The notes below the pieces were generated by a model, which was not told the origin of the DNA, ran no database searches, and saw nothing but the letters and a program-made list of their open reading frames with translations. 39,696 bases of DNA from Bacillota bacterium (GTDB taxonomy: Bacteria; Bacillota; Sulfobacillia; Sulfobacillales; JAIMBI01), in contig JAJYPH010000010.1 in the NCBI GenBank assembly GCA_021795575.1, forward strand, positions 1 through 39,696, read 5' to 3'. Below, piece after piece: positions 3,554-12,718 of the stretch; the stretch's first letter is position 1; each line of letters begins with the position of its first letter. The position numbers and the translations under genes are program-made.

Positions 3554-5545
3554 TTACAGTTTTCGGGCAAACCAGTCGCTGACGCGGCGCACGACATCCA
3601 CCCGGAGACTGGGCGTGGGTCCAAGCCACAGCCCCACGTGGCTTTCCCGCGGATAGCGCACGAACGTCACATCCCGGCCGCGCGCCCGAAGCGCCGCGTA
3701 GAACTCCTCGGTTTGCCCAATCGGGCAGCGGTCATCGCCCTCCGCGTGATACAGCAGGGTCTTGGTGTTCACGTTCTGCACGTACGCGAGGGGCGACATG
3801 GACCACAGATGCGGCATGTCCTGCCACACCGTGGCGGCATGCTGCAGGGGGCCCCAGTACCACCCGATGTCGGACGTGCCATGAAAGCTGACCAGGTTGG
3901 TGACGCACCCCCCCGGCGCCGCCGCCTTGAACCGATCGGTGTGTCCAATCACCCACGTGCTCATGAACCCGCCGTAGCTGTACCCGGTCACCCCAAGCCG
4001 GGCCGGATCGGCGACGCCCCGATCCACGGCGGCGTCGACCGCCGCCATCAGGTCCTGGTAGTCTTTGTGCCCCCAGTCGTTGATGACGGCGTTGGCAAAA
4101 TCTTTGCCGTACGCGTCGCTCCCGCGCGGATTGACATACAGCACCGCCAAGCCCCGCGCCGCCATCGCCTGCACATCAAACTTGAAGCCGCACCCGAAGC
4201 TGCCGCGCGGGCCGCCGTGAATGTCCAGCACCAGCGGGTACGGGCCCTCGCCGGCGCCCGGCGGCCGCTGCAGAAAACCCTCGACGGTCCATCCGTCGGG
4301 GCCGGTGAATTCAAAGGGTTCCACCGACCGGAGGTCCCACGACGCGCGCACCGCCTGATTCAGCGTGGTCAGGGCGTGTTCCCGACCCGCGGAATCCAGC
4401 CAGTACAGCTCGTCGGGCGTAGTGGAGTCGCTGGCGGTGAACAGGACCGAGCCGTTGTCGGCTTGCGCATACTGTCCGACCGCCTTCTGGTCCTCGGGCG
4501 TCACGGTGGCCATGGCCCCCGACACGGGGTCCACCTCGTACAGGCGGGAGACCCCCCGGTCGGTGGCCAAAAACCGGACACGAGTGCCGCCCGACGCGTA
4601 CGAGGGGCCCGACGCGCTCATGGCCGAGCGCAGGTCGCTGCCCTGACCCATGGCCGGACGGTCAAAGTGGGGGGCCAGGTCCTGGCCGGAGCCGCGGGCC
4701 AGGTCCAGCTGCCACACCGCCACCGTCCCGTCCGCCACCAAATCGTCTCGGGACGCCAGGAACACCAGTCGCTGGCTGTCGGGGGCGAACGACGGGAACA
4801 TGGTCATGCCGCGTCCCGGAAAAGCCACGCGGGTGTCTCCGCTCGTGACGTCCGTGAGCAACAGGTCCTGGATGAACACCGAGGTGTCGTCGGCATGGGC
4901 GGCCGTGAAAGCAAACTGGCGGCCGTCCGGCGACAAGGCCGACGAGGCGATGGCCCCGGCGTGGGACAGGATCCGGCGCTGGAAGGCGCCATCCACGGAC
5001 ACCTGCCATACCTCGGTGGTCACGGGGTCGACCAGCCCCGACCCATCCGCCTTGAAGCGCGGCGACGTGTAGACGCGAATGCCCGCTGGCGGCTCGTGAA
5101 CCTGCACCCGGGCTACCAACACGGACTGCCCGTCGGGCGCCCAGTGCAGGACGCTGCCCAGCACCTTCTGCTCGAACAGACTCTGACGGTCGTCCACCTC
5201 GGAGGAGTTGTCGTCTTCGCTCGCTCCTCGGGCCAGGATGTCCTCCACCCGCGCCAAGCGGACCCGGGCGAGGTTTTGGCCTCCGGCCACCCAGGCCACC
5301 TGGGTGCCGTCCGGCGACAGGGCGAGGGTCCGAGCATTTTCCCCGGCATTCGCGAGGATCCCGGTTCGGTCGCTGGCCAGGTCGCGCACATGAATCGCGC
5401 GACGGTAACGGTCGTGACTTGGCTCCGCCTGCTCCACGAAATAGACGGCCAGTCGACCGTCCTGGCTGATCCTGGGCTCATGAACCGTCTTCAGCTGCCA
5501 GTAGTCTTCCGCCCGCACGGGGCGCGGGGAATGCTGTCCTGCCAA
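3554..5545 (-). CDS. S9 family peptidase (prolyl oligopeptidase / acylaminoacyl-peptidase type)
   Basis: The protein of about 663 residues has an N-terminal beta-propeller region with WD-like repeats ('LSPDGTQVAW', 'LSPDGRQFAF', 'FAPDSQRLVF') followed by an alpha/beta hydrolase domain. The triad is visible: Ser in GYSYGG (about 523), Asp in GDDRCP (about 602) and His in RESHVG (about 633). The oxyanion region HGGPRGSFG also fits family S9. I place the start at the TTG at 5545: AAAGAGGGG lies eight bases upstream of it, whereas the same motif overlaps the GTG at 5554 used in the ORF track. There is no signal peptide, so it is a cytoplasmic oligopeptidase or acylaminoacyl peptidase recycling peptides. 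It is convergent with the serine hydrolase gene. Confidence 0.92.
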   Translation of the reverse strand: MAGQHSPRPVRAEDYWQLKTVHEPRISQDGRLAVYFVEQAEPSHDRYRRAIHVRDLASDRTGILANAGENARTLALSPDGTQVAWVAGGQNLARVRLARVEDILARGASEDDNSSEVDDRQSLFEQKVLGSVLHWAPDGQSVLVARVQVHEPPAGIRVYTSPRFKADGSGLVDPVTTEVWQVSVDGAFQRRILSHAGAIASSALSPDGRQFAFTAAHADDTSVFIQDLLLTDVTSGDTRVAFPGRGMTMFPSFAPDSQRLVFLASRDDLVADGTVAVWQLDLARGSGQDLAPHFDRPAMGQGSDLRSAMSASGPSYASGGTRVRFLATDRGVSRLYEVDPVSGAMATVTPEDQKAVGQYAQADNGSVLFTASDSTTPDELYWLDSAGREHALTTLNQAVRASWDLRSVEPFEFTGPDGWTVEGFLQRPPGAGEGPYPLVLDIHGGPRGSFGCGFKFDVQAMAARGLAVLYVNPRGSDAYGKDFANAVINDWGHKDYQDLMAAVDAAVDRGVADPARLGVTGYSYGGFMSTWVIGHTDRFKAAAPGGCVTNLVSFHGTSDIGWYWGPLQHAATVWQDMPHLWSMSPLAYVQNVNTKTLLYHAEGDDRCPIGQTEEFYAALRARGRDVTFVRYPRESHVGLWLGPTPSLRVDVVRRVSDWFARKL

Positions 5546-5720
5546 TATGTACACCCCTCTTTAGGGTCATTCGGGTCATCTTGCGGGTCCAGGTGCTGGG
5601 GATCCCGGCCATACCCTCCGGCGGCGACGCGGTGAAGACTGCGCTCTCATGGTATCAGACGGGTCGTCGAAACCGTTGCGCCGCGTGGGGACAGCGTCTG
5701 GGGTGACCTCCGGCGGCCTG

Positions 5721-6338
5721 TCAGACGCGCAGCCGCACCGTGGCCAGGGCGGGATCCAGCTCCCCCGAGACCACCGCGATGCGCGGGGCATGCCCCAGCC
5801 CAAAGTGGACACGGGTCAGCACGGCGGCCCAGACGGCCCGCCCCGGAGCATCCAGGTCCTTCGCACCGCCGGCCACCAGCCACACGAGGGGATCCGGCAA
5901 GAGGCTCGCCGCCAGTAAGAGCCGCCGCATCTCGCCCCCCGACAGGTTGGCGAGCCGCCGGCGGCGCAGGGGATCCAATCCCCAGCGGGCGCTCTCTCGG
6001 TCGATGGCGTCTCGCGCCCGGGCCCCCGTGACGTTCCACAACAGGGCGGCCAGGCGCAGGGCCTGGCGCACCGAAAGGTGCCCCGCCTCCCAGGGCCGGT
6101 CGGGCACCAGGGTGGTGCGGCGCTGCCACCCCACCAAGTCGGCGCCGGCCACCGGCCGGTCGTTCCACACACACGTGGCCCCGGTCGGCCGCACGACGCC
6201 CGCCAGGCATTCCAGCAGCGCCGGTGCCGCTCCGCTGCCCTCGTCCAGCAGCCAGGTCACACCGGGACCGGCCCGAAACGCCTGGGTCTCTGCGGAGCCG
6301 ACGCCGTCCACCCCAATGGCGACCAGGTCACGTGTCAT
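5721..6338 (-). CDS. degenerate ABC ATPase subunit (signature intact, nucleotide site lost)
   Basis: This 205-residue protein is shaped like an ABC nucleotide-binding domain. The Walker A position reads 'LLDEGSGAAPALL' with no GK[ST]. The Q-loop position is 'LVPDRP' without Gln, the Walker B position 'VWLVAGG' lacks Asp and Glu, and the switch His is absent ('VVSGEL'). The signature, however, is a clean LSGGE in 'LANLSGGEMRRLL', and the D-loop region keeps 'DLDA'. It should therefore not hydrolyse ATP alone but can complete a partner's site. The start ATG (6338) overlaps the stop of the upstream membrane protein as ATGA. It is the last gene of the sigma/ABC operon; its partner is predicted to be the ATPase at 9874-10827. 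The ORF-track start at 6947 is an upstream extension with no support. Confidence 0.8.
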   Translation of the reverse strand: MTRDLVAIGVDGVGSAETQAFRAGPGVTWLLDEGSGAAPALLECLAGVVRPTGATCVWNDRPVAGADLVGWQRRTTLVPDRPWEAGHLSVRQALRLAALLWNVTGARARDAIDRESARWGLDPLRRRRLANLSGGEMRRLLLAASLLPDPLVWLVAGGAKDLDAPGRAVWAAVLTRVHFGLGHAPRIAVVSGELDPALATVRLRV

Positions 6339-7201
6339 GGCGTCCGCTCCCCGCCCACGCGACGGGCGTTCCAGAGGCCAAACGCCCACACGACCGCCCC
6401 CACCGGTACCCAGACGGCCGCCGGCGCCCTTAAGAGCGCCAGCACCGGCACCCACTCGGGACGGCCCGCCGTCAGGGCGGCCACCACCGCCAAGCCGTTC
6501 GCCACCCCGAGCGCGGTGAGCGCGCCGTTCAGCCGGCGCGGCGGCAGCAGGGCTGAGCTGGCCAACCCTAGGGCCAACGACGCGCTGAATCCCACTCCGG
6601 CCGCGGCGGCCCAGGGACCCAGCTGGGCACTGTCGGCAAGCCCCCCGTACCCCAGCGCGATGGCCAGCGCCACCACACCGGTCAGCGCCGCCCCGACCCA
6701 GCGGGCGGCGCGGGCGCGCCCGGCGGACAGCGGCGCGATGCGTGTCCAGGCATCCAACACCCCCGTGACCGCCGCGCCACGGCGGCCCATGGCCCAGAAA
6801 CCCAGCCACGGCGCCATGATGGCCCACAAGTCCAGGCCGATGGGGCGCTGGGGCAACAGCGAGGTAAAGAGCTCGCCGGCGATGAGCAGGAGGGCCGCCA
6901 GCGCGGGCGCCACCAGTCGGCCGGGCTGGGCCACCAGCTGCCACCATGCCAGCCGGACCACCGCCCCCCGGCGCGGCCCGGATTCAAGGGGAAGCCGCCA
7001 CCCCGAATCCCGCTCCGCCTCGATGCGCGCCCACAGCGTGGGGGCATCCGGGTGCGGGCCGACCGCCGGCCAATCCTCGCGATGCTGCGCCAAAAGTGCC
7101 TGGTCATCCGCCGACAACCCGAGCGCGGACCACTCCTCCGCCCGAGCGCGGCGCCGTCCGTCCCCGGCATCGCGTCCCTCGGCGCCCGGCGGTTGGTTCA
7201 T
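6335..7201 (-). CDS. membrane protein, ABC-2-like permease or sigma-linked sensor
   Basis: The 288-residue protein has a charged cytoplasmic N-terminus of about 95 residues followed by about six hydrophobic segments (roughly 97-116, 123-139, 166-186, 194-217, 226-244, 252-275). No family is recognised with certainty. The transmembrane pattern and the ATPase gene directly downstream suggest an ABC-2 type permease subunit. Because its ATG overlaps the stop of the ECF sigma gene (ATGA), and genes just downstream of ECF sigma factors usually encode anti-sigma factors, the soluble N-terminus could bind the sigma factor. There is no zinc-finger HxxxCxxC motif, so it is not a classical ZAS anti-sigma factor. 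It overlaps the downstream degenerate ATPase by four bases, so translation is probably coupled. Confidence 0.75.
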   Translation of the reverse strand: MNQPPGAEGRDAGDGRRRARAEEWSALGLSADDQALLAQHREDWPAVGPHPDAPTLWARIEAERDSGWRLPLESGPRRGAVVRLAWWQLVAQPGRLVAPALAALLLIAGELFTSLLPQRPIGLDLWAIMAPWLGFWAMGRRGAAVTGVLDAWTRIAPLSAGRARAARWVGAALTGVVALAIALGYGGLADSAQLGPWAAAAGVGFSASLALGLASSALLPPRRLNGALTALGVANGLAVVAALTAGRPEWVPVLALLRAPAAVWVPVGAVVWAFGLWNARRVGGERTP

Positions 7202-7761
7202 GATCCCTCCCCCTTTCGCAACGCGGCCAACAGCCGCGGATACGCCCGCGCCAGCCGCGTCTTGACGGTGCCCACCGGCACCCCGATCACTTCGGCCACC
7301 TGTTGGACGGGCAGATCCGCGAAGTAGTGCAGCGACACCGCCATACGCTGCTCACGCGACAAGCCTTCCAGTGCCTGGCGAAGCGCGTCGGCGGTCTCCA
7401 CCGCCTCCGTGAACGGTGCGGCGGGGGAGCTGGCCACGTCCCCGAGCGTCGGCTCCGAATCCGCCACCGTCTCATAGCCCCGCCGTCGAAACACGTCGCG
7501 CGCCCGGTTCATGGCGACCCGATAGAGATACGCGCGAAAGCGAAAGGCACCCGACCCCATAGGACCACGAGTCATCACCGCGACAAACGCATCCTGCGCA
7601 ACGTCTTCGGCCAGCAGTCGGTCACCGCTCCACGCCACGAGAAACCGATACAGCCCGTCGCGGTGACGCGCATACAACACGCCAAACGCGTCGGAATTCC
7701 CCTGCCGGGCCGCGCGGTACAGCGTGTCGTCCCCACCCCGCTCGTCTGCCGCCGTCGTCAT
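7198..7761 (-). CDS. ECF-type RNA polymerase sigma factor
   Basis: This 187-residue protein has sigma-70 region 2 at residues 18-95 ('DAFGVLYARHRDGLYRFL', 'AEDVAQDAFVAVM', 'FRAYLYRVAMNRARD') and region 4 at 124-180 with a helix-turn-helix ('QQVAEVIGVPVGTVKTRLARA'). Region 3 is missing, as expected of ECF factors. The start is the ATG at 7761; GGAGG lies rather far upstream (about 15 bases), so initiation may be weak or coupled to the preceding gene 85 bases away. The gene sits in the middle of an ABC transporter operon, comparable in concept to the SigY operon of Bacillus subtilis, which includes ABC transporter genes. It probably directs the operon's own promoter at 10855-10881. Confidence 0.92.
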   Translation of the reverse strand: MTTAADERGGDDTLYRAARQGNSDAFGVLYARHRDGLYRFLVAWSGDRLLAEDVAQDAFVAVMTRGPMGSGAFRFRAYLYRVAMNRARDVFRRRGYETVADSEPTLGDVASSPAAPFTEAVETADALRQALEGLSREQRMAVSLHYFADLPVQQVAEVIGVPVGTVKTRLARAYPRLLAALRKGEGS

Positions 7762-7846
7762 GACCGTCGATTCCAACCTCCGAGCCGGTGCCGCCTTGTC
7801 CCTCACGGTACCAGACCAGCCGGAAACCGGTGCCCACTCCCGCTCG

Positions 7847-9877
7847 TCACGCATGCGCCGCCTCCCGGCGCGCCACGGCGCGCCACTGGGCCACTTGGCG
7901 GGCGGTGGGCCACCGGCCGTTGGCTGCGGCCGCGGCGAACTGTCGCCACAGAGCACGCACCTGGCCCATCGACAGGCCGCCAAACGCGTGGACGTGCATC
8001 GGAAACGGCCCGCCCACCAGACCGCCTCCGCCAAACACGCCCGGCCACCGGTTTAAGAGCCAAAGCAGCACGCGATCCGCGGGCCGCTGATTGACCGCCC
8101 ACGGCCGGTCGAACGAGGCGAAGCGCGTCCAGTGGGGCGAGATGGCCGACCACAACAGCGCCGTCTGGTCCACGGCCTCGTGGAACGGGATGGATACGGC
8201 GGGGTTGGTTGTGAAAGCGACGGACATGGCCGGCAGCCAAGGGGGCGTGCCCGAGACTATCAAGGGGCCGACCGGGGCCCCAATGGGGTTGGGGTTGCCC
8301 AACGCCACCAGGCCGCTGGGCACTGAGCCAAACACCAAATCCACAGCGTTTAACCGGCGGACCGAAACCCCAGCGACTTGGGCGCGGATGGCACCGGCCG
8401 TCGGCTGATAGTCCACTGCGTAGGGCAGGATCATGCCCACATGGCGATACCCGCCGTCGACCGTCACCCGCTCGGACGGACCCGCCCACAGCGTGATGCC
8501 ATGGGACACCACCGGGGCGAAGGTCCCGGCCACCAGCGTGACGCCCGTGGTGCCGTGGCCCACCGCCTTGGGCCCCAGCCGGCCAAGGTTGCTTTCCACG
8601 ACGAGCCAGGGCGCCCGGACCGATACGGTGTACCGGGCGACCGGCGGCGTGTTGACCCGACTCGGGTCCGGCGGCACCACCGGATACCAGCCCCCGGCCG
8701 GCAGGTATGCACCTGCAGCCGACGCAAAGGCGGTGGTGACGGCGTTTTGGCCGCTGCCGGACCAGCCCCACTCGTCCAAAAACCCTCCATAACGCACCAC
8801 GACCGCGCCCGACCCGGCGGGGTGGCCCGCCACCCGGATGTAGCCTCCCGACCGGTGGAACGCCACGGAGCTCCCGTTGACGCTCACCCCCGACACGGTG
8901 AGGGCAGGGTTCAGCCACAGATCCACCAGCGCCGACACCGGACGAATCGTCGCCGCGGCGGCCATCGGCCCACTCGCGCCGATCGTCAGCGCGATCCGTT
9001 CGCTGGCGATGGCGGGCCCGCCGGCCGCCGCTTGGACCGGCGGTGTCGGGGACGGGGAATTCGGGCGCCACGCGGCCGCTAGCGTGATCGCCAGCAGGGC
9101 GACGGCCACGAGGGCGCTGGGCCCCCGCATCCGCCACCCGCGGTCCGGCAGGTTCAGCCGCCGAAGGAGAGATGCCCCCACCAACAGCACCGTGGCGGCG
9201 GCCATCATGCCCATAACGGCGTGAAAGAGCCCCGCAAACCCGCCAAAGCCCCAGGTGTCGGACCCGGCGCCCGCCAGCACGGTCCATGGCGTCATGGCCG
9301 TGAGCCCGACGCCCAGGACCCAACCGGGGGACGCGCTGCGAACCAACAGGATCGTGTTGGCCACCACGCCCGCCAGCGGCACGCTGACCACGACCGCCAT
9401 GCCGGCGGGTCCGGGCCACCAGCTGCCCACCCACGCCCCAAAACTCCACAACAGAGCAAAGTCCAGCCACAACATGACCGCGAGGTCGCCGGCGTCGGCC
9501 CATCCCTGTAGAGAGCTGGCCGTCACGGCCACCACCCCACCGGCCAGGAGCAGGGCGGCCGCCCCGGTCACCACCCCGATGCCTCCCAACTCCGCCACCC
9601 AGGCGCGAGCACCGGAGCCCAGCCACACGGCCCGAAGCGTCCCGACGTCCGCCGCGGCTCGGCGATAGCCCGTGTACGCCCACACCAGGCTCGTGGGCAG
9701 CATGCACAGGATGGGCGCCCACACCAGCCAGGGCAACGGCCCCTCGCGCAGCGTGCTGACCGCCACCACACCCACCGGCGCCGCGACGGCCACGACCACG
9801 ACCCACCACAAGAGCCGGGTGTACGCGAGCCAACGCGCCAGCGTCCGGACTTCCAAGCCCATGAGCCGCCCGGTCAT
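7847..9877 (-). CDS. ABC-2-like permease fused to a large M1-peptidase-like ectodomain
   Basis: The 676-residue protein has about seven membrane segments (near 24-43, 50-68, 98-120, 133-152, 158-180, 213-238, 253-270) and then some 400 residues predicted outside the membrane. The ectodomain begins with beta-rich sequence ('LWLNPALTVSGVSVNG', 'VVVRYGGFLDEW', 'YLPAGGWYPV', 'YTVSVRAPWLVVESN') like the N-terminal sandwich of M1 aminopeptidases. Fusions of ABC permeases to M1 peptidases are a known architecture. Where HExxH is expected the protein has FHEAVDQ (about 565-571), so the zinc site is broken, and no true GAMEN is seen. It is therefore likely a binding or sensing domain. The start overlaps the stop of the upstream ATPase gene (ATGA). 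The M1 relation is an inference from sequence patterns. Confidence 0.75.
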   Translation of the reverse strand: MTGRLMGLEVRTLARWLAYTRLLWWVVVVAVAAPVGVVAVSTLREGPLPWLVWAPILCMLPTSLVWAYTGYRRAAADVGTLRAVWLGSGARAWVAELGGIGVVTGAAALLLAGGVVAVTASSLQGWADAGDLAVMLWLDFALLWSFGAWVGSWWPGPAGMAVVVSVPLAGVVANTILLVRSASPGWVLGVGLTAMTPWTVLAGAGSDTWGFGGFAGLFHAVMGMMAAATVLLVGASLLRRLNLPDRGWRMRGPSALVAVALLAITLAAAWRPNSPSPTPPVQAAAGGPAIASERIALTIGASGPMAAAATIRPVSALVDLWLNPALTVSGVSVNGSSVAFHRSGGYIRVAGHPAGSGAVVVRYGGFLDEWGWSGSGQNAVTTAFASAAGAYLPAGGWYPVVPPDPSRVNTPPVARYTVSVRAPWLVVESNLGRLGPKAVGHGTTGVTLVAGTFAPVVSHGITLWAGPSERVTVDGGYRHVGMILPYAVDYQPTAGAIRAQVAGVSVRRLNAVDLVFGSVPSGLVALGNPNPIGAPVGPLIVSGTPPWLPAMSVAFTTNPAVSIPFHEAVDQTALLWSAISPHWTRFASFDRPWAVNQRPADRVLLWLLNRWPGVFGGGGLVGGPFPMHVHAFGGLSMGQVRALWRQFAAAAANGRWPTARQVAQWRAVARREAAHA

Positions 9878-10827
9878 CGAGACGCCACCCGCCGGCGCGC
9901 CAGCACCAACGCCTGGTGACCATCCTCGACCGTCGGCACAGCCAATTCCTCAGCCACCTCCGCCGGCACGGGCACCGGGCCCACCACACGCACGGCCACC
10001 TGGTCCTCGGCCGGGTAAATGGCCGTCGCCGTGGCCCCGGCGAGCGGCAGGGCCGCCAGCCAGGTCTCCCCCGCACGGTCCCAGAGATCGACGGGCCAGT
10101 GCGTCAGGCGCACTTGGCCCGCGCCGGCAGCGGCAACGGCCTCGGGCGACCCGTCGGCCACCACCGCGCCCTCGGCGATGACCACCACGCGTCCGGCCCG
10201 CCCCATCACCGCGGGACCCACGTGCGTCGCCACGATGACGGTGGCCGCTTGGCTGCGTTCCAGCAACAGGGCCCCGAGCCGCTCCTGGTCCCCTGGCGGC
10301 AGGCGCTCGGTGGGCTCGTCCAAGATCCACACCGGCGGCGCGCCCAGGAGAGACTGCGCCACCAGGGCCCACTGCTGCACCCGTCCGGGGGCGCGAGCCA
10401 GCGACACCGACTCGTGGCCCGTGACCCCCAGCGTTTCCAACAAGTCTTCCGCTACACTGGCGGCCGCTCGCGCCGACCCCAGTCCCCGCTGGACAGCGGC
10501 GGCCGCGACCCAGTCGCGGGCCGTCAGGTGATGATCCAAGTGGGCCCCCTGTGGGACATAACCAACATTCGCCCGCAGGTGTGCCACGTCGCGCGGGAAT
10601 TCCCAGCCATCGAAGCCCACGCGTCCCTGGGTGGGCGTGAGCACCGTGGCCATGATTTTTAACAGCGTGCTTTTGCCCGCGCCGTTGGCCCCCAGCACGA
10701 CATGCAGGCCGGAGCCAAACGCCAGCGTCACGTCCGCGAGCGCTTGGTGCGCGCGGAAGCGCCGAGACACCTGCCGCACCCACACCTCCACGGCATCCCG
10801 TTCCTCTCCCGTTGTTGGTCCCGCCAC
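9874..10827 (-). CDS. ABC transporter ATPase with intact nucleotide site but degenerate signature
   Basis: This 317-residue protein has Walker A GANGAGKST (about 49-57), Q-loop 'VGYVPQ', Walker B 'VWILDEPTE' and switch His in 'VIVATHV'. The signature that should read LSGGQ is 'APGRV' (within 'LARAPGRVQQW'), and the D-loop reads 'RLPP' instead of 'GLDP'. It can thus bind ATP but cannot complete a site opposite a second copy of itself. About 85 extra C-terminal residues follow the ATPase core. The ORF begins at GTG 10827 without an obvious ribosome site; GTG 10791, preceded by GGAGAGG at 11 bases, is an alternative start. It is the first gene of the operon and is followed by the permease with a four-base overlap. 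Confidence 0.88.
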   Translation of the reverse strand: MAGPTTGEERDAVEVWVRQVSRRFRAHQALADVTLAFGSGLHVVLGANGAGKSTLLKIMATVLTPTQGRVGFDGWEFPRDVAHLRANVGYVPQGAHLDHHLTARDWVAAAAVQRGLGSARAAASVAEDLLETLGVTGHESVSLARAPGRVQQWALVAQSLLGAPPVWILDEPTERLPPGDQERLGALLLERSQAATVIVATHVGPAVMGRAGRVVVIAEGAVVADGSPEAVAAAGAGQVRLTHWPVDLWDRAGETWLAALPLAGATATAIYPAEDQVAVRVVGPVPVPAEVAEELAVPTVEDGHQALVLARRRVASR

Positions 10828-10854
10828 CGATCATGCCGCGCGGTTCTAGGATGA

Positions 10855-10881
10855 GACGGGTGAGGTGCCGTTCGGGTTTCA
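10855..10881 (-). promoter_or_regulatory. ECF-type promoter candidate of the sigma/ABC operon
   Basis: On the minus strand TGAAACC (10881-10875) is followed after exactly 16 bases by CGTC (10858-10855). This is the classical ECF promoter form (SigW-type promoters are TGAAAC-N16-CGTA). Transcription would begin near 10848, about 20 bases before the GTG at 10827. Its position directly in front of an operon that encodes an ECF sigma factor suggests autoregulation. Similar strings occur by chance elsewhere in this window, so position is the main support. Confidence 0.5.
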
Positions 10882-11500: not shown

Positions 11501-11938
11501 CTAGTCGGGAAACAGGGACAAGTACTCCCCGTAGCCCTCCGCCGCCAACTGGTCCTTCGGCACGAACCGCAGGGCCGCCGAATTGATGCAGTAGCGCAGT
11601 CCCCCCTTGTCGCGGGGGCCATCGTGGAAAACATGGCCCAGATGGGCCCCGGTGTCCGTGGAGGTGACCTCGGTGCGCACCATGCCGTGGGTCAGATCCA
11701 CGTGGTTGCCGATCCGGTCCGTGCTCATGGGCTGCGTAAAGCTGGGCCAGCCACAGTCGGAGTCAAACTTGTCCTGCGAGGAAAACAACGGGGCACCCGA
11801 AATCACGTCGACGTACAAGCCCTCTTCATGATGGTCCCAGTAGGGGTTCTGAAACGGCGGCTCTGTGCCTTTTTCCTGAGTGACCTTGAACGCCAGTGGA
11901 CTGAGCCGCGCTCGCAGGGCCTCGCGATCCGTTGCCAT
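11501..11938 (-). CDS. msrB: peptide-methionine (R)-S-oxide reductase MsrB
   Basis: This 145-residue enzyme reduces methionine-R-sulfoxide in proteins. The catalytic Cys117 lies in 'RYCINSAALRF', the probable resolving Cys62 in 'DCGWPSF', and the conserved 'HLGHVF' is at 99-104. The two CxxC pairs that bind structural zinc in many MsrB proteins are absent, so this is the zinc-free type. I use the ATG at 11938 because AGGAGG lies seven bases before it; the GTG at 11944 abuts that site. The gene is followed upstream on the same strand by a methyltransferase about 55 bases away, possibly in one transcript. Confidence 0.95.
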   Translation of the reverse strand: MATDREALRARLSPLAFKVTQEKGTEPPFQNPYWDHHEEGLYVDVISGAPLFSSQDKFDSDCGWPSFTQPMSTDRIGNHVDLTHGMVRTEVTSTDTGAHLGHVFHDGPRDKGGLRYCINSAALRFVPKDQLAAEGYGEYLSLFPD

Positions 11939-11992
11939 CCTCACACCTCCTGGCTCTATGGTACCAGGGCTGCGCCCCGGGCTCGCGGCCGT

Positions 11993-12718
11993 TCAGCGCC
12001 GACGTGCGCGGATGCCCAGGACGGCCGGGCACTTGCGATTCTGGGTCAGGCGTCCGGGCGCCGCCTCCCACCCGGGCGCTGTTCCCGTCGGCTCCACTAT
12101 CGCCTGAATGGCAAACCCCCCCGCCAAAAGCGCGGTGGCCCACGTGCTCACCGTTCGATGCCACCGCACCACCACCAAGTCTCCCCGCTGGTCCCGCACG
12201 GGTCCCTCCTCAAGGTAGCGGTCGACAGGCCATGCCGCCTGGGGCGTGCCGTCATCCAGCCAGTGGTCCCGACGACTGGCTGTCCCCAGGGGATGTTGCA
12301 CCGTAAGCGCAAACCAGCCGTCCTGGACGAGCCATCGGTGCACACGCTGAACAACCCGCGGCAGGTGTTCTACATAATGCAGCGCCATGCTGCTGAACAC
12401 CCCGTCCACGCTCTCGGTGGGCAGATCGACATCCTCCATGCGGGCGTGGACATAGCGGACGCGCGGGTGCTCCCGCGCCAGAGCCAACATGGCGCTGGAC
12501 GCCTCGACGGCCACGACCGAGCGGGCTCCGCCCCCGGCACACTCGCAGGCAAAATCCCCCGCGCCGGCCCCCAGGTCCACCAACGCCAATCCCCCCACGG
12601 GACCCATCAAGGCTCGCAAAGCGGGCTTTTCGATGTACTGATTCACCGGGGATGACCCACGCACGGCCGCGACGTATTCGGCCACCGCCTCGGGATCGTG
12701 CCAGGCGTCGCGCTCCAC
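11993..12718 (-). CDS. class I SAM-dependent methyltransferase
   Basis: This 241-residue protein starts at GTG 12718 with GGAGGAGG in good position. Motif I is 'LVDLGAGAGDFA' (about 46-57), the acidic end of strand 2 is 'VVAVEASSAML', and motif IV is 'FSSMALHYVEHLP', all typical of the Methyltransf_11/25 small-molecule methyltransferases. The C-terminal half has the 'GWFALTVQHPL' post-motif strand. The substrate is not deducible. The stop lies about 55 bases before the msrB start, so the two may be co-transcribed. Confidence 0.9.
   Translation of the reverse strand: MERDAWHDPEAVAEYVAAVRGSSPVNQYIEKPALRALMGPVGGLALVDLGAGAGDFACECAGGGARSVVAVEASSAMLALAREHPRVRYVHARMEDVDLPTESVDGVFSSMALHYVEHLPRVVQRVHRWLVQDGWFALTVQHPLGTASRRDHWLDDGTPQAAWPVDRYLEEGPVRDQRGDLVVVRWHRTVSTWATALLAGGFAIQAIVEPTGTAPGWEAAPGRLTQNRKCPAVLGIRARRR

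Follow-up and report, generated by a model that had tools for sequence, protein, structure and literature searches.

An ECF sigma factor paired with a permease-like six-TM protein in ABC transporter operons of Bacillota: a candidate transporter-borne anti-sigma factor

What holds an ECF sigma factor in check when its gene lies in the middle of an ABC transporter operon, with no classical anti-sigma gene at its side? The locus that raises this question lies on the minus strand of the window, by which we mean the whole stretch of 39,696 nt analysed here. Its gene order is borne out as originally read: an ABC ATPase of the DrrA-like kind (ATPase1, 9874–10827; PF00005, E 7e-21), with Walker A (GANGAGKST) and Walker B (LDEPT) intact; a 676-residue ABC-2-like permease with 6–7 TM segments and a C-terminal ectodomain of ~390 residues (the ecto-permease, 7847–9877); the sigma factor, 187 aa long, from ATG 7761 to TGA 7198; a 288-aa six-TM protein with a predicted cytoplasmic N-terminal extension (6335–7201), our candidate for both anti-sigma factor and ABC permease subunit; and a short, degenerate second ABC ATPase (ATPase2, 5721–6338; PF00005, E 9e-7). 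For ATPase1, conservation and the position of the Shine-Dalgarno sequence make GTG 10791 a likelier start than 10827. ATGA overlaps had been claimed for four of the five genes; three of the four junctions have one (9877/9874, 7201/7198 and 6338/6335), and permease and sigma are separated by a gap of 85 nt. An in-frame ATG at 7854 would give the sigma gene an 8-nt overlap with the permease stop; this start would add 31 poorly conserved residues, and an indel seen there within the genus preserves the frame. A gene for a zinc-finger anti-sigma factor is indeed absent, as had been stated, and a zinc anti-sigma domain (HxxxCxxC) is excluded for the six-TM protein because it contains no cysteine. 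Upstream of the operon lie a methionine sulfoxide reductase B gene (11501–11944, minus strand, SelR domain) and then a methyltransferase gene (11993–12718). On the other side, 166 nt past the operon and on the same strand, is an S9 prolyl-oligopeptidase-like gene (3554–5554, minus strand); in genome G001, and probably in G003, a frame of equal size occupies that position.

By its domain content, the sigma factor (7198–7761, minus strand) is an ordinary ECF (group IV) sigma factor. It consists of regions 2 and 4 only, without sigma1 or sigma3: PF04542 covers residues 29–95 (Sigma70_r2, E 4e-12) and PF08281 residues 125–174 (Sigma70_r4_2, E 2e-15). These two families and TIGR02937 match above cut-off, and the score against the NCBIfam superfamily sigma70-ECF is 91 bits (cut-off 43). 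Orthologues are present in all three other genomes of the genus. In a tree of 53 sigma factors, the 30 that are ABC-linked cluster: they need 2 label changes, compared with 17.7 for shuffled labels, none of 500 shuffles being as low; the topology is compatible with a single origin of the ABC-linked sigma factors.

Is the adjacent membrane protein a constant partner of this sigma factor? A check for fixed pairing across genomes had been proposed, and the pairing holds. The query for our search of 399 genomes of the phylum was a profile built from just the six-TM protein, so that adjacency was not presupposed (its seeds, however, were all sigma-adjacent); it yielded 24 places in 23 genomes. One of them begins at a contig end, which leaves 23 testable; in 22 of these, the gene immediately upstream of the six-TM gene encodes an ECF sigma factor. 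Homologous operons lacking the sigma gene had been named as the finding that would speak against a link. One weak match alone is of this kind (G129, at 24 bits in the HMM check the weakest six-TM match of all): here a permease follows an ATPase, its soluble N-terminus is ~26 residues long, and it thus lacks the N-terminal extension as well as the sigma gene. Every clear ecto-permease homologue whose flank was intact also adjoined a sigma gene or shared a cluster with one. Matches to the permease profile among named genomes fall in metagenome bins labelled 'Bacillota bacterium', plus one marginal match in Acidobacteria; no homologues were found on named plasmids.

Closer to the window, the order of the whole operon is kept. 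The four species-level genomes of the window's genus have it in identical form, and at class level we find homologous operons in G004 (split over contigs), G006, G008 (two), G014, G029, G011 and G085, mostly in the order ATPase, permease, ecto-permease, sigma, six-TM protein, ATPase2. Most class operons carry one extra small permease between ATPase1 and the ecto-permease, which the window's genus lacks. Many of the genomes compared are fragmented and have contig breaks. The conservation of gene order in the genus and in many relatives is far beyond chance. Genomes G000 and G002 hold a homologous operon also as a second copy. That of G000 (L028, L133, L146) is diverged and apparently split over contigs C166 and C216 inside the six-TM gene; G002 has the same second copy, on C44. 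At another locus (L027, G014:C148), the ecto-permease gene is spread over several reading frames, as a pseudogene or through assembly errors; its sigma and six-TM genes are intact.

Farther out, sigma directly upstream of the six-TM gene stays constant though the other ABC genes change place. In G077 the order is sigma, six-TM protein, ATPase, ecto-permease, ATPase, permease; in G149 sigma and six-TM protein come last, after ecto-permease, permease and ATPase. This mobility favours one rival explanation, in which the six-TM protein, though of permease descent, has left the transporter and become a dedicated multi-pass anti-sigma factor that itself senses envelope stress or a ligand, the ABC genes being only its targets. 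Two loci (G164 and G453) that have no ATPase gene directly downstream of the six-TM gene point the same way, and there is a precedent in the microbisporicin system, where the ECF sigma factor MibX and the membrane anti-sigma factor MibW, which sequesters it, are co-transcribed and, through a feed-forward loop, govern genes for ABC transport and immunity (PMC4973701). Sensing by the anti-sigma factor itself has been proposed for MibW; unlike the protein studied here, it is not described as part of an ABC complex, whereas the partner in the window resembles an ABC permease and is encoded inside a transporter operon. That resemblance counts against a separate anti-sigma factor, as does the ABC ATPase gene found behind the six-TM gene in every sigma-paired locus but the two just named. 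We consider this explanation unlikely, if a serious competitor.

The case for a transporter subunit turns on the six-TM protein itself. It matches no Pfam or NCBIfam family, permissive thresholds included, and neither it nor the ecto-permease has a meaningful match in a sequence search of the PDB. Profile comparison is more informative: over 120 columns, the membrane domain can be aligned to the small ABC permeases that related operons encode, at an hhalign score of 34.5 (P 2e-4), against maxima of 12.6 for shuffled and 11.9 for reversed controls; the two are remotely homologous. By the positive-inside rule, the distribution of lysine and arginine over the loops of nine homologues assigns both termini, as well as loops 2 and 4, to the inside. 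The N-terminus is accordingly predicted to be cytoplasmic, and its soluble segment, residues 1–75 in the window (6977–7201, minus strand), is a candidate sigma-binding segment. This segment measures about 55–95 residues in the window's clade. Against the N-termini of phylum-wide members it reaches a profile score of 17.1 (shuffled maximum 8.9), a homology at the edge of detection. An AlphaFold model built from nine sequences is poor (pLDDT 48) and places three short helices, at low confidence, before the membrane; a fold search with it gave uninformative noise. Residues 1–95 had been put forward as the sigma-binding part. We narrow this to about residues 20–75 as a plausible candidate because residues 77–91 look, in the model, like a helix leading into the membrane domain.

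It is also possible that no anti-sigma factor is at work. The sigma factor, governed by the transcription of its gene or by some other signal, would then simply autoregulate a transporter operon in which the six-TM protein serves as a permease subunit of the ordinary kind. The N-terminus indeed shows no detectable homology to anti-sigma domains: it matches no anti-sigma family of Pfam or NCBIfam, and two hhalign comparisons with the N-termini of 14 single-TM anti-sigma-like proteins, encoded beside other ECF sigma factors of the same order, were negative, the second, with shuffled controls, giving a score of 6.6 (shuffled maximum 7.0). ECF groups with conserved ABC transporter or ATPase neighbours and no known anti-sigma factor, such as ECF257, have been listed (PMC8999054), and since that review lists them, the ABC link of ECF sigma factors is not in itself new. 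For the window, by contrast with these groups, we propose a candidate regulator, the paired membrane subunit with its cytoplasmic extension. Against an ordinary permease speaks the fixed adjacency, throughout the phylum, of a sigma gene and this one permease-like subunit with its additional, conserved segment on the cytoplasmic side, and we regard control without an anti-sigma factor as quite improbable.

The remaining ABC genes bear on what such a transporter might sense and how it might be driven. The ecto-permease, homologues of which adjoin the sigma gene in related operons, has no Pfam or NCBIfam match. Its structural model is poor (pLDDT 47), and all 50 PDB matches listed by Foldseek for it are M1-type enzymes; the best has E 4e-6 and probability 1.00 at a TM-score of about 0.2, for a model that is itself of low confidence. 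The HExxH zinc motif is absent from the alignment of ecto-permeases and from more distant ones. We considered an active M1 peptidase, since FHEAVDQ in the window resembles a degenerate HExxH, and rejected it: the stretch is not conserved in the sister genomes. Because HExxH is not conserved, the ectodomain, predicted to be M1-aminopeptidase-like, would be a non-catalytic relative at most, one that perhaps binds peptides.

ATPase2 has retained its signature (LSGGE) in the window and has lost the Walker A lysine (GSGAAPA) and the Asp/Glu of Walker B (LVAGGAKDL); both Walker motifs are destroyed throughout the window's genus. Judged from these motifs, half of the presumed motor is not normal in the genus, which counts against a working transporter whose permease doubles as anti-sigma factor. 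Walker A is intact in G004, in G006, in one of the two operons of G008 (C199) and in loci outside the clade. In G014, G029, G011, the other G008 operon (C172), G085 and G002 (C44) it has been lost via different substitutions, and since these differ between loci, ATPase2 must have decayed more than once, or early and then drifted. That the gene is retained without its Walker residues in the window's genus and several class members suggests a non-transport role, and with it a third rival: the degenerate ATPase2 could act as anti-sigma factor or as switch, anchored to the membrane through the six-TM protein. However, outside the class the ATPase at that place has normal motifs, and in two loci it is missing from the position while the pair of sigma and six-TM protein is kept. 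We think this very improbable.

How would the sigma factor act on its own operon? An ECF-type promoter, TGAAACC-N16-CGTCTCA, lies at the head of the operon (10852–10881, minus strand) and is the sole match in the window at up to 2 mismatches. Its core, GAAACC-N16-CGTCTC, occurs exactly once in each genome of the genus (4/4), each time just upstream of ATPase1. We also used a looser pattern, GA[AT][AC]C-N16/17-[CA]GT[CT], which was picked after viewing the sequences. Of 13 homologous operons, 12 match it no farther than 110 nt from ATPase1, as against 1.05% of random stretches. Despite the after-the-fact choice of pattern, the excess is large and the position shared, and an ECF promoter upstream of ATPase1 is therefore very likely. 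The shape of this putative promoter, AAC at -35 and CGT at -10, is as expected for the operon's own ECF sigma factor, which would imply autoregulation. Upstream of ATPase1 in L034 and L036, and also in L032, we find GTGATCCAAA, with a CGTC -10 in L034 and L036. Read as the different -35 of one sub-clade, GTGATCCAAA suggests that promoter specificity diverged there together with the sigma factor.

In front of the sigma gene itself, the looser ECF pattern used upstream of ATPase1 was not found in 16 phylum-level loci, a point against our reading; a still looser one, AAC-N16-18-CGT, stands there in 4 of the 16 (6.8% expected), too weak an excess for use. In the window, the 85-nt gap contains a putative extended -10 element, TGGTACCGT (7805–7813, minus strand), a weak candidate for an internal sigma promoter, and the pattern TGnTAnnnT is conserved at this place in the four genus members and in G008. 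Such an element could, on weak grounds, supply basal sigma factor, which would suit control without an anti-sigma factor; it may instead lie inside coding sequence, if the sigma gene starts at 7854. A scan for sigma70-type promoters and terminators returned nothing.

Taken together, we lean somewhat towards a self-regulating ABC unit, in which the permease-type six-TM subunit doubles as anti-sigma factor and the state of the transporter frees the sigma factor. The original prediction that the ABC complex itself is the anti-sigma device is, at the level of sequence comparison, partly supported. Under this proposal, the cytoplasmic N-terminus of the six-TM protein, probably through about residues 20–75, would keep the ECF sigma factor inactive at the membrane. 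An external ligand, most likely a peptide or a cell-envelope-active compound, would bind the M1-peptidase-like ectodomain or be transported, and ligand or transport cycle would alter the ABC complex so that the sigma factor is freed. Free sigma factor would then fire the single ECF-type promoter before ATPase1 and raise expression of the whole operon, anti-sigma factor and transporter alike, so that shut-off would come after induction. The conserved gene order, the fixed pairing, the permease homology, the N-in pattern and the conserved, genome-unique promoter are seen in the sequences; the binding of the sigma factor, the nature of the ligand and the release through the transport cycle are steps that we infer.

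Two known systems invite comparison. The SigY (YxlB) operon of Bacillus subtilis, in which ABC genes are reported, had been offered as a partial precedent, and it too has an ECF sigma factor with a membrane partner gene downstream, as in the window. The precedent proves weaker than claimed. We tried SigY as the identity of the window's sigma factor and rejected it, at 71 bits against a cut-off of 194 for NCBIfam NF007216; the ABC-linked sigma factors of G217, G496 and G424 rank with the best of those matches to this model that stay below its cut-off. G217 also encodes a true SigY (237 bits), whose partners are two small 2-TM proteins and which has no ABC genes beside it; a distinct sigma factor of the same genome carries the set of sigma, six-TM protein, ATPase and permease. 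The 113-aa 2-TM partner of this SigY differs from the 288-aa six-TM partner in the window, which is not of the small YxlC type. In the BceAB-BceRS flux-sensing modules of Firmicutes, an ABC transporter does the sensing for the regulator that controls the transporter's genes, and the transporter in the window would do likewise. There, however, the regulator is a histidine kinase with a response regulator and the extracellular domain is of the Bce type, whereas here they are an ECF sigma factor and an M1-like domain. In a literature search that was short on subscription papers, including the main ECF classification, we found no paper in which an ABC permease is put forward as anti-sigma factor. 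Thus, ABC-linked ECF sigma factors are known, and the architecture seen in the window appears to be new.

The recurrence of the pair of sigma and six-TM protein across the phylum suggests that holding and releasing the sigma factor falls to the transporter itself. A broader version of the idea, that signalling ABC transporters of this kind exist Bacillota-wide, their permease subunit having acquired a cytoplasmic anti-sigma segment and ligand binding or transport releasing a dedicated ECF sigma factor, strikes us as plausible but slightly doubtful. Recurring ECF sigma factors without a known regulator, found in about 5% of the phylum's genomes sampled here, gain a candidate anti-sigma factor and a testable promoter, and the M1-like ectodomain points to peptides as the ligand class for transporters that are unnamed in protein family libraries. 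If true, the proposal would describe a new signal route, in which an ABC transporter reports its ligand or activity to RNA polymerase via a sigma factor, without a kinase or a proteolytic cascade; it would be the sigma-factor counterpart of transporter-coupled two-component sensing.
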